Shown here: positions 42,297 through 60,454 of the stretch, piece after piece
How positions within the stretch are numbered: position 1 is the stretch's first letter
How the letters are laid out: the number at the start of each line of letters is the position of its first letter
Assembly: GCF_000178835.2 (NCBI RefSeq)
Contig: NC_015275.1
Span: forward strand, 2,005,001 to 2,069,000
DNA length: 64,000 nucleotides
Direction: 5' to 3'
Origin: Cellulosilyticum lentocellum DSM 5427
GTDB lineage: Bacteria; Bacillota; Clostridia; Lachnospirales; Cellulosilyticaceae
Notes under the pieces: model-generated
Seen by the model: only the letters and a program-made list of their open reading frames with translations
Told to the model about the DNA's origin: nothing
The model's database searches: none
Program-made: the position numbers and the translations under genes

Positions 42297-42489
42297 GTCT
42301 TATTAAAAATGATTGATTGCCTTCATATGGCGAATTTAATCAGATATAAGTATAGAGAGAGAAATAAAATCTATAAGAGGAATAGGCATTTTCTCATGAA
42401 ATATTAATCTTGGACATATCAATTTCTCATAAAGAGGAGTTATATTAATCTTACAAACACTTAACATAAAGGAAATGGGGAGAATAGTA

Positions 42490-42975
42490 ATGGGAAAAAA
42501 AGAAACAAATATTATTTTAGCGGCTATTTTAATTATCATCGGGATAGGTGGTATCTTAAAACAAGTTTTTAATATTAATCTATTTGGTTATATTTCTTTC
42601 TGGGATTTAGGTATTTTAGCACTGGGGTTATATTTTGAGTGGCAGTATTTTACCACAAGAAGGTCACCAGGCATTCTTGTTCCAGGAGGTATTTTTACAG
42701 TTGTAGGATTATTTAGCTTTTTAGAGGCCTTACTTGGAGGACTATTCTTTACACACTTTCCAGCAGGGGAGCTAGGTGTAGCATTAGGGCTATTTCAGCT
42801 TTATTGGTTTGGTTCTCGTAATAAATTCTTATTAATTCCAGTAGGTATTTTATTAATTTCTGCTTTAGATGAAATGAGTACCAATTTTTTTAGATGGTTT
42901 AATGGTTCTTTAGTATGGTCTATTGGTCTTATTGCTATTGGTATTTATCTTATTGCAAATAGAAAAAGAAATTAA
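42490..42975 (+). CDS. Small multi-helix membrane protein
   Basis: 161 residues from ATG 42490, seven bases after GGGGAG; an upstream ATG at 42475 precedes that site. Hydrophobic segments lie near residues 6-27, 36-52, 65-83, 88-103 and 133-153, with few charged residues between, so four or five membrane helices. It resembles LiaI/LiaF-type or DUF5668-like envelope proteins in layout, but I see no diagnostic motif. A strong terminator follows, so it is a single-gene unit. Confidence 0.8.
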   Translation: MGKKETNIILAAILIIIGIGGILKQVFNINLFGYISFWDLGILALGLYFEWQYFTTRRSPGILVPGGIFTVVGLFSFLEALLGGLFFTHFPAGELGVALGLFQLYWFGSRNKFLLIPVGILLISALDEMSTNFFRWFNGSLVWSIGLIAIGIYLIANRKRN

Positions 42976-43032
42976 AGTCATATTAAATATTTATTATAGA
43001 AAAGCTTATTAAGTTTAGCAAATAAAAATTCA

Positions 43033-43086
43033 ACAAAAAAGGTAATCCTTTCAGTGAAGTATCACAGTAAGGATTACCTTTTTTGT
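43033..43086 (+). terminator. Rho-independent terminator
   Basis: ACAAAAAAGGTAATCCTT (43033-43050) and AAGGATTACCTTTTTTGT (43069-43086) are perfect 18-bp complements; the T run lies in the right arm. Confidence 0.88.
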
Positions 43087-43119
43087 GCCAGACTCTTATT
43101 TAACTTCTATAACATGCTA

Positions 43120-43480
43120 CCCATTTCTTAAAAAAGACACAGCAATGGCTCCTCAGCACAGTATGAAGTTTCATAAGGCATAGGTAGCAACATCATAAAA
43201 GTTAAACCAATGAGTGAGGAGCTCCTTAAAGTCTTGGCCGGGCTGCCCTAAGCTAGGTGCCAAGGCCTTAAGACTCTGGTTAAAACTTTATTTGAATCAT
43301 ACAAGATGTAAAAACGTTTTTGGCAACTTATAAATGGCGCCTCCCTGTCAGCGTACTAGTGACATTTTCCTTGGAGACAGAGGTATCTGTAGCAACAGAT
43401 TGAAACTTACGAGGCCCGGTCAGTTCCTCAAGTTAATGTTGCGGTGATTATGCTGAGGAAGTTGTTTGATTTGTTTTTAC
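43120..43480 (+). ncRNA. Candidate structured non-coding RNA, class not identified
   Basis: No gene fits here. Bases 43141-43440 are about 43% G+C by my count, richer than the flanks, and rich in paired arms. TCCTCAGCA (43150-43158) with TGCTGAGGA (43451-43459) closes the region. Alternatively GCTCCTCA (43148-43155) pairs with TGAGGAGC (43215-43222). AGTCTTGGCC (43230-43239) pairs with GGCC and AAGACT (43264-43275), ATCTGT with ACAGAT (43385-43400), AACTT-GAGG with CCTC-AAGTT (43404-43434), and TGTCA with TGACA (43346-43364). A T-rich tail follows on the plus strand, and TATAAC (43108-43113) could be a -10 box. I see no RNase P, tmRNA, SRP or T-box core. Strand is inferred. Confidence 0.55.
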
Positions 43481-43574
43481 ACGTATATATATGTTAGCTA
43501 CAAGTGGAATCCCTAATAGAAAATAAAAATATTTTTAAACGCTATTTATAACATTTCTTCATAAAAAAGTAGGA

Positions 43575-44441
43575 TTAGCCATTAATAATTTCTCCACCAT
43601 TAATATGAATGGTTTGTCCTGTTATATAACTAGCAGCTTTAGAAGCTAAGAAAACATAAGCACCTGCACATTCTATGGGTTGACCAGCACGACCTAGTGG
43701 CGTGGTAGTACCAAAAGCAGGAATGCTGCTTACATCAAAACTAGAAGGAATAAAAGGTGTCCAAATAGGACCTGGTGCAACAGCATTAACACGTATACCA
43801 GACTTTGATTTTGTAAGAGCCATAGAAAGGGAGCGCGTGAAAGCTGTAATGGCACCTTTGGTCATGGAGTAATCGATGAGTTTTTCATGACCATGAAAAG
43901 CGACGACAGAAGTTGTATTAATAATGCATGCACCTGATTTGAGATGCGGTAAGACGGCCTTAGTCATATAAAAAGTGCCATATACATTAGTTTTAAAAGT
44001 TTTATCAAACTGTTCGGTAGTAATGGCTTGTAAACTTGAGTTTTCATATTGGACAGCAGCATTATTGACTAGGATATCGATATGCTTATAGGTATCCATG
44101 ACTTTTGTGACTACGTCTGTAGCGAAAGTTTCTTCTGTGAGATCACCTTTAATAAGAAGACAGCTTTGGCCATAAGCTTCAACAGCTTTTTGTGTATCCT
44201 CTGCATCTTTATCTTCATTATAGTAAACAATGGCAACATCAGCTCCTTGCTTGGCATAAGCCACTGCTACAGCACGTCCAATACCACTATCACCACCTGT
44301 AATAATAGCTACTTGTTCTTGGAGTAAACTACCATTTGGAAGAGTCGTTTTATCATCAAAAATGGGGAGTGGTTGCATTTCGTATTCAAAACCAGGATGC
44401 CTTGTTTGTTGTTGCGCTTTAAAATGGTTAGGGAAAGACAT
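43575..44441 (-). CDS. SDR oxidoreductase of the general-stress (GS39/YdaD-like) type
   Basis: 288 residues with the long N-terminal extension (HPGFEYEMQPLPIFDD) that marks the YdaD/YhxD-like subgroup of short-chain dehydrogenases. The cofactor motif is TGGDSGIGRAVA near residue 49, then NNAA, the catalytic Y-x-x-x-K as YSMTK, and the end ITGQTIHINGG. Relatives are induced by general stress in Bacillus; the substrate is not known. ATG 44441 is preceded by AGGAGG. It is monocistronic between the putative RNA region and the divergent RNase J gene. Confidence 0.92.
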   Translation of the reverse strand: MSFPNHFKAQQQTRHPGFEYEMQPLPIFDDKTTLPNGSLLQEQVAIITGGDSGIGRAVAVAYAKQGADVAIVYYNEDKDAEDTQKAVEAYGQSCLLIKGDLTEETFATDVVTKVMDTYKHIDILVNNAAVQYENSSLQAITTEQFDKTFKTNVYGTFYMTKAVLPHLKSGACIINTTSVVAFHGHEKLIDYSMTKGAITAFTRSLSMALTKSKSGIRVNAVAPGPIWTPFIPSSFDVSSIPAFGTTTPLGRAGQPIECAGAYVFLASKAASYITGQTIHINGGEIING

Positions 44442-51271: not shown

Positions 51272-52042
51272 ATGTCAGATGCGATTAACAGGGCATATTA
51301 CTCTATTATTCCAGCAAATGTTAGATATGATAGTGATCTTACCGCTAATGCTAAGCTGCTCTACGGAGAAATAACAGCACTTTGCAATGACAAGGGATAT
51401 TGCTGGGCGAGCAATGAGTATTTTTCTAAGCTCTATGGGGTTAGTAAAAAATCTATATCGACATGGATTAGTCAATTAGTCAAAAAGAATTATATAAGTT
51501 TAGATATTACATACAAAGAAGGTAGTAAAGAAATTCTCTATAGGTATTTACGAATTCTTCCATACCCTATGGAAGAAAAGGTTAATACCCCTATGGAAGA
51601 AAAGGTTAAAGAGAATAATACAGATATTAATAATACATTTAATAATAATATAGTGCTGATTATTGAGTATTTGAATAGTATTTGTGGAACTAATTATAAA
51701 CCAACTAGTAAGACTACAAAGAGATTAATTGTAGCTAGATTAAAAGAACATTATACCGTTGATGATTTTAAAAAAGTAATATTCACAATGTCAAGTAAAT
51801 GGAAAGGAACAAAGTTTGAACAGTATTTAAGACCATCAACCTTATTCAATGAAGATAAGTTCGAGGGGTATCTAAATCAATATAAGAATATAGGTAAATT
51901 TGAGAATGGTGCATCAAGTAGCAAAATTGAAAAATTTAATAGTATGGCTTCTCATGATTGGGACTTTGATGAATTAGAGAAATTACAACTAGAAAGGAAA
52001 TCAAAACTAGTTAAAGAAAGAGAGGGACATTCAAGTGAGTGA
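51272..52042 (+). CDS. Phage replication organiser (HTH plus Phg_2220_C domain)
   Basis: 256 residues. The N-terminus is a winged-helix domain of the HTH_36 type (AKLLYGEITALCNDKGYCWA, YGVSKKSISTWISQLVKKNY). After a short repeat (PMEEKVN/PMEEKVK) comes the C-terminal domain found in phage replisome organisers: IIEYLNSICGTNYKPTSKTT, WKGTKFEQYLRPSTLFNEDK and FEGYLN. It probably binds the phage origin and recruits the host helicase loader. No separate DnaC-like loader is seen nearby. Confidence 0.88.
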   Translation: MSDAINRAYYSIIPANVRYDSDLTANAKLLYGEITALCNDKGYCWASNEYFSKLYGVSKKSISTWISQLVKKNYISLDITYKEGSKEILYRYLRILPYPMEEKVNTPMEEKVKENNTDINNTFNNNIVLIIEYLNSICGTNYKPTSKTTKRLIVARLKEHYTVDDFKKVIFTMSSKWKGTKFEQYLRPSTLFNEDKFEGYLNQYKNIGKFENGASSSKIEKFNSMASHDWDFDELEKLQLERKSKLVKEREGHSSE

Positions 52043-60347: not shown

Positions 60348-60351
60348 GTTT

Positions 60352-60425
60352 TGGAATGTAACTCAGTTGGTTAGAGTGCTGTTCTTATAAAGCAGTGGTC
60401 GTGAGTTCGAGTCTCACCATTCCGA
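60352..60425 (+). tRNA. tRNA-Ile, anticodon UAU (reads AUA)
   Basis: Acceptor TGGAATG/CATTCCG with a U-G first pair; D stem ACTC/GAGT; anticodon stem CTGTT/AGCAG (one G-U) with loop CTTATAA, giving anticodon TAT; variable loop TGGTC; T stem GTGAG/CTCAC with loop TTCGAGT; discriminator A. No CCA is encoded. All arms are intact. UAU is a rare bacterial isoleucine anticodon; most bacteria read AUA with a lysidine-modified CAU tRNA. Confidence 0.9.
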
Positions 60426-60454
60426 TTACACTAAAGAAAGGTGGTGATATATTA

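Follow-up and report, generated by a model that had tools for sequence, protein, structure and literature searches.

The intergenic stretch 42976-43574 of the window, by which we mean the whole 64,000 nucleotides analysed (bases 2005001-2069000 of the one-contig genome of Cellulosilyticum lentocellum DSM 5427, 4,714,237 bases), contains what we take for a gene for a non-coding RNA, encoded on the minus strand. It belongs to a family of about 40 paralogues scattered over the genome and is a putative member of the regulon of an alternative sigma factor. We assign this combined reading a probability of about 0.7; its core, that the minus strand encodes a non-coding RNA here, we hold with high confidence. 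At the level of sequence, the dispersed copies, a promoter-like motif with a fixed distance between its boxes, a hairpin of terminator type at the 3' end and covarying helices with a pseudoknot are established, and transcription of the family is predicted from such features. The RNA locus is flanked by an ORF at 42475-42975 (plus strand) and a short-chain dehydrogenase gene at 43575-44441 (minus strand; Pfam adh_short), and the window's ORF list holds no frame of at least 40 aa between them, in agreement with the initial annotation, which had called the region gene-free. It had also pointed to a raised G+C content, which holds against the AT-rich flanks (0.40-0.435 versus 0.24-0.33) but not against nearby coding DNA, where values are equally high (up to 0.42). 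Its proposal of a folded RNA was sound, but the extent has to be corrected from 330-360 nt within 43120-43480 to about 448 nt, because about 85 nt of the 3' end had been left out, with most of one helix E arm, the CTGG arm and the terminator hairpin lying beyond these boundaries; the multicopy family, the common promoter and the gene's own terminator had been missed. Elsewhere, the window carries a phage-type integrase gene (PF00589, 47165-48274) and a tRNA-Ile gene (60351-60426). The features of the RNA locus are the following:

43035-43482, minus strand: non-coding RNA gene, about 448 nt, predicted ends, defined by promoter, terminator, structure and 40 copies
43510-43516, minus strand: -35-like box TTAGGGA, part of TTAGGGA-N16-CATATA at 43488-43516
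43488-43493, minus strand: -10-like box CATATA, predicted start near 43482
43306-43482, minus strand: 5' domain closed by helix P1 (43473-43482 with 43306-43315)
43276-43279, minus strand: CCAG arm of the pairing that closes the 3' domain (helices 1-2 of the structure count)
43088-43091, minus strand: CTGG arm of the same closing pairing, included in the structure count
43224-43277, minus strand: hairpin B
43240-43248, minus strand: segment GGGC-A-GCCC in the loop of hairpin B, self-complementary
43215-43222, minus strand: helix C, 5' arm GCUCCUCA
43148-43155, minus strand: helix C, 3' arm UGAGGAGC, pairing with GCUCCUCA
43180-43203, minus strand: helix E, 5' arm, forming a 23-bp duplex of -25.9 kcal/mol in the window copy
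43102-43125, minus strand: helix E, 3' arm, used in the comparison of same-copy and swapped arms
43033-43086, minus strand: terminator-like hairpin, 25-nt arms, 92% complementary

A DNA search of the genome with 43080-43540 returned 42 matching stretches, and searching the retrieved loci with a profile (genomes and loci are cited below by our own G and L numbers) resolved 29 near-full-length copies besides partial ones. The covariance model R2, built for the 3' domain, matched the genome at 41 places, 40 of them at E<=1e-7, a number to be taken as a census and not as an independent test because 38 of the 40 had been in the training set of R2. With ORFs counted from the first start codon, the 29 full copies are situated between larger ORFs, four of them overlapping short ORFs of 72-108 aa, and in four further full copies a neighbouring ORF intrudes into one end by up to 59 nt. 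In 19 of the 29 cases, the ORF next to the terminator is oriented towards the RNA.

The presence of 40 copies in one genome and their intergenic placing, together with R1, a model of 151 positions of the 5' domain, finding none in 39 of 40 relatives (at E<=0.1 it matched two of 41 genomes, C. lentocellum and G007, the latter with E 1.6e-10), would also be expected of a non-autonomous mobile repeat of the Bacillus cereus bcr1 kind, whose folding and transcription serve its own spread, whose promoter was captured from the sigma regulon and which has no function for the host. It would suit such an element that the copies are still kept in C. lentocellum with its broken sigma gene (see below) and that the window copy is bracketed by an AT-rich direct repeat (13/14 positions, 43016-43029 and 43517-43530). 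This repeat is, however, not seen across the 29 copies, for which neither target duplications nor terminal inverted repeats rose above permutation in nine flank combinations, direct and inverted (18 tests). Neither a transposase nor any ORF resides inside the RNA copies, the single copy of G005 comes with promoter and terminator, and old, divergent copies retain the promoter and compensatory pairing. We therefore treat a mere repeat as a possibility to be taken seriously, if not the probable one. The RNA family may nevertheless have multiplied like a mobile repeat in the C. lentocellum lineage. Searches with copy L013 in plasmids and phages and with a 27-base core pattern in IMG/VR gave no match. 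By eye, what reads as the end of an IS3-type element abuts the decayed copy in G007 (L045 1-180), and similar sequence is seen at copy L032.

Most copies share a motif in front of them. TTAGGGA-N14..20-CATATA has 39 matches genome-wide, whereas its reversed form has 0 and 2, and TAGGGA-N15..17-CATATA is found no more than 320 nt upstream of 35 of the 40 copies, with a spacing of 16 bases in each and with these 16 bases variable in sequence. A consensus sigma-70 scan of the 42900-43650 region does not list the TTAGGGA-N16-CATATA site, which is in line with recognition by another sigma factor. At the opposite end, the terminator-like hairpin is flanked by an A-run and a T-run, i.e. by T-runs on both strands, and would be usable in both directions. 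A stable fold followed by a T-rich octamer was present in 34 of 37 family members as compared with 51 of 300 random 80-mers of the window; at -15 kcal/mol only 5 of the 300 pass, a level that all 34 members reach, L040 only just. The hairpin sequences are unrelated between many copies. A dedicated terminator scan of 42900-43650 reported no site.

The motif is not restricted to RNA copies. In C. lentocellum it precedes genes for DUF1659 (PF07872) and DUF2922 (PF11148) as well as what reads as a decayed DUF2922 gene, and yvrJ (PF12841) is preceded by the near motif TAGGGGA-N16-CATATA. TTAGGGA-N16-CATATA is also located just upstream of a tRNA-Gln gene (CTG anticodon; L039 2695-2803, G000:C1:102095-102203) beside a short RNA copy, where by eye it is overlapped by a sigma-70-like promoter. 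DUF2922 is present in 20 of 41 genomes, C. lentocellum included, and in nine of the 19 relatives concerned the motif lies upstream of it, exactly in six (G002, G004, G014, G017, G019 and G023) and nearly so in three (TTAGGGT in G001 and G003, CATATG on contig 39 of G005); a relaxed scan gave no motif for the G005 DUF2922 gene nearest the RNA of that genome. DUF1659 was tested by Pfam in C. lentocellum, G004 and G005. A gene without confident Pfam family likewise follows the motif in G001, G004 and G014 (L131 326-1279, L130 1861-3162, L126-L128), with several copies in G014. The C-terminal part of its product resembles an ORF of the window at 51866-51991 (40 aa, 45%).

A candidate for the factor reading this motif emerges from the same neighbourhoods. 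A sigma-70-family gene adjoins DUF2922 in seven of the 19 relatives, namely G004, which served as query, and G001, G002, G003, G006, G007 and G019 at 46-63% identity, while G008 has more distant sigma-70-family genes. In G004 the protein combines Sigma70_r2 (residues 14-63) and Sigma70_r4 (120-166) in one chain of 169 aa. By relaxed scan, the motif is found in five of the seven (G001-G004 and G019) and in neither G006 nor G007; in the stretches retrieved for G014, G017, G023 and G005 the motif occurs but that sigma gene does not. The assignment of sigma factor to promoter is thus drawn from gene context in five genomes. Taking the sigma gene beside DUF2922 and the common motif together, we consider it quite likely that the RNA family belongs to the regulon of this sigma. 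If the motif is indeed read by the small sigma-70-family factor encoded beside DUF2922 in the relatives, the RNAs would be produced together with the DUF1659, DUF2922 and YvrJ proteins.

The main result against a present function in this strain comes from the sigma gene itself. Its C. lentocellum orthologue (L153 1498-2001; G000:C1:4133181-4133681) contains one in-frame TAG where seven out of seven relatives have a Gln codon, and the RNA family may therefore be silent or weakly expressed in DSM 5427 at present. Next to this orthologue, C. lentocellum carries a conserved divergent gene of an uncharacterised family that has no match in Pfam or NCBIfam and perhaps a ComK-like look. One match to RsoA-type HTH_16 was found in the C. 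lentocellum genome and set aside; it falls inside a 202-aa sigma-like ORF elsewhere.

Homologues in other organisms are few. Among the 31 genomes searched with R2, only G005 gave a convincing match outside C. lentocellum (E 1.6e-12), and since the G005 sequence was part of R2, the model R3 was built as a test from 32 C. lentocellum copies, leaving out G005, G007, L070, L074, L075, L187, L023 and L039, and run on 25 loci (155,629 bases). R3 recovers the G005 RNA (E 4.3e-7) in the orientation and position that its promoter predicts, just downstream of it, and also detects G007 (E 0.0026) and the divergent copies L187 (5.8e-14), L075 (2.1e-11), L070 (0.0014) and L074 (0.01); L129 of G001 and the other relatives' loci give nothing at E<=1. 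The G005 RNA is thus a divergent homologue in another Cellulosilyticum species, with one detected copy that has both promoter and terminator; a DUF1659-DUF2922 pair is 2.3 kb away. G007 is Sporanaerobium hydrogeniformans, of a sister genus, and its copy is decayed by sequence; its contig NZ_PEDL01000023.1 was the only one to carry the 27-base core pattern among named genomes, a set from which C. lentocellum itself is possibly absent. A weak R2 match in G004 (E 0.012) was rejected because it lies inside an apparent membrane-protein gene with no motif nearby. In G001 (L129), non-coding sequence with a hairpin resembling a terminator comes after the promoter motif; found by neither R2 nor R3, this unit enters none of our counts.

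Comparison of the copies gives a picture of the fold. The comparison used alignments A2 (39 rows, without L023, which has a mutated core arm, and L129) and A3 (37 rows, without L023, L129, L070 and L074). Compensatory changes among homologues, which the initial annotation had named beforehand as a test, are present: the counted structure has seven pairs with double changes as compared with 1.7 in shuffles, none of 500 of which reaches seven, where neither shuffles nor permutations take account of shared descent among the copies. The 9-bp closing pairing noticed in the initial annotation recurs as the 9-10 bp of P1 (GUGUAAAAAC with GUUUUUACAC), and the alternative partners that it had described for one arm are also found (TGAGGA/TCCTCA). 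Hairpin B contributes 12 counted pairs, four of them with changes on both sides, on a pair list picked on the same alignment that was used for counting; by eye, an inner pair of this hairpin reads A-C on the minus strand in many copies. Helix C (8 bp) is nearly invariant, with 97.2% of cells paired on A3 and compensation in L132 and, by eye, in L070.

Helix E comprises at least 20 pairs in many copies. Arms taken from the same copy pair with a mean of -18.2 kcal/mol in the 37 members, swapped arms with -12.55 (sd 0.61; lowest of 5000 permutations -14.67), a test weakened by a 5' arm that was mispicked for at least four rows (L020, L030, L032 and L035), all of which were kept. Covariation supports this long helix, and since it crosses helix C, the 3' domain is a pseudoknot. 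The short copies L036, L038, L039 and L041 all lack nearly the same stretch, HMM positions from about 222-224 to 391-400, which covers the greater part of the P1 domain. This is an indication of a modular RNA; with somewhat less assurance, the RNA may be conceived as a 5' domain (P1) joined to a pseudoknotted 3' domain.

The loop of hairpin B deserves separate mention. It is self-complementary in 35 of the 37 members and lacks a palindrome in two, and it exists in six palindrome sequence types: GGUGCACC in 27 members, GGUGCGCC in three, GGAC-N-GUCC in two, and singly GGGC-A-GCCC in the window copy, GUGCAC in one further copy and GGUACC in the G005 RNA. Set against composition shuffles (36 of 37 observed, shuffle mean 15.9, highest 27), the palindrome is only moderately special. 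It is conceivable that the RNA pairs with itself through this loop, and we give dimerisation somewhat less than an even chance.

A family of many sibling small RNAs that act by base pairing, with conserved unpaired stretches binding target messages, could equally have its own promoter and terminator, and near-invariant stretches do lie between the helices in A3. The size of about 450 nt and the long intramolecular helices speak against such regulators, and we consider them unlikely. We rather envisage that the RNA acts in trans as a dimer or a scaffold and not by pairing with messages, because the longest helix changes its sequence freely while complementarity is kept; this proposed function is itself rather doubtful. 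The trans-acting role, already suggested in the initial annotation, is something we infer.

The strand, which that annotation had left open, is better decided. On the minus strand, 43100-43500 folds better than shuffles (z -2.41, 3 of 100 as good), and helix E is better on this strand in 27 of the 37 members. That the plus strand instead gives rise to a trans-acting RNA, 330-360 nt long and lying between 43120 and 43480, is very improbable, despite the T-runs on both strands of the terminator hairpin and some short helices outside our model, found in a strand-neutral search (helices of at least 5 bp, wobble cells scored per strand), that lean to plus (2 minus against 14 plus, 0 against 10 and 1 against 8), for the plus strand folds like shuffles (z -0.33, 33 of 100 as good), the two promoter-like matches of a sigma-70-type scan, against 3.2 expected by chance, are both on minus, wobble cells in the same search favour minus in P1 (26 against 2) and in the core of helix E (17 against 4), and the consensus alignment energy over 29 copies is -117 for plus as compared with -135 for minus.

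Our best reading is that C. lentocellum probably harbours a new family of RNAs, putatively trans-acting and perhaps self-pairing, that has multiplied like a mobile repeat. A more far-reaching version would be an RNA-protein system built on a new class of pseudoknotted, self-dimerising RNAs of about 450 nt. Counted by genes, these RNAs would be what a dedicated alternative sigma factor chiefly produces, alongside DUF1659, DUF2922 and YvrJ, with one copy in a sister species and 40 in C. lentocellum, whose sigma gene would later have acquired its stop codon. This version is less likely than not to hold in full and is offered as a speculation. To our knowledge, it would be rare for a bacterium to have some 40 structured RNA genes under one alternative promoter. 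One promoter tying the orphan families DUF1659, DUF2922 and YvrJ to an undescribed structured RNA would offer a handle on the role of the operon, and the sister species (G005) with its one detected copy provides a clean test bed.

The placing of the RNA outside known classes has stood up, as has its description as a stand-alone folded RNA without an Rfam entry. At gathering score, all families of Rfam 15 (among them raiA, OLE, ROOL, GOLLD, 6S, T-box, RNase P, tmRNA and introns) yielded only the tRNA at 60352 in the window and only 16S rRNA in loci L132, L129, L187, L070 and L155. At E<=10, 42970-43580 and L013 2880-3520 returned sub-threshold matches only, those in 42970-43580 being of miRNA, snoRNA and CRISPR type (best E 0.03). 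A search of the open-licence literature retrieved no paper naming C. lentocellum together with noncoding RNA, and papers naming DUF1659, DUF2922 or YvrJ do not, by title and opening of the abstract, deal with such a regulon. A term search of the main text of two large ncRNA surveys met neither the genus or species nor Lachnospiraceae, and the genus name Cellulosilyticum is absent among the matches listed for papers with RNA terms.

Three known systems invite comparison. In Bacillus subtilis, SigO-RsoA transcribes yvrJ, according to an excerpt of PMC8103513, and yvrJ is, by motif alone, among the motif-bearing genes of C. lentocellum, with a promoter nearly the same as that of the RNAs. There, however, regions 2 and 4 are split over two proteins, whereas the G004-type sigma unites them in one. 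The B. cereus repeats bcr1-bcr18, described in part of PMC6542083 as dispersed, species-group-limited elements of 100-400 bp with an average of 39 bcr1 copies per strain, resemble our family, by their description, in being dispersed and limited to few species. They differ in that the RNA copies have no TTTAT-type site or target duplication (three flank definitions) and in that most carry their own promoter and terminator. OLE, ROOL and GOLLD are, like the family presented here, large, intricately paired, stand-alone bacterial RNAs; our family is other in sequence, shorter and without Rfam match, and has about 40 copies and a sigma-linked promoter. Palindromic loops that change in sequence and yet stay self-complementary are put forward in an excerpt of PMC12286853 in support of self-pairing by OLE and GOLLD, and the loop of hairpin B behaves likewise, as far as sequence can tell. 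Should the RNA indeed pair with itself, it would be a sequence-unrelated and much shorter addition to the few natural RNA homo-oligomers.
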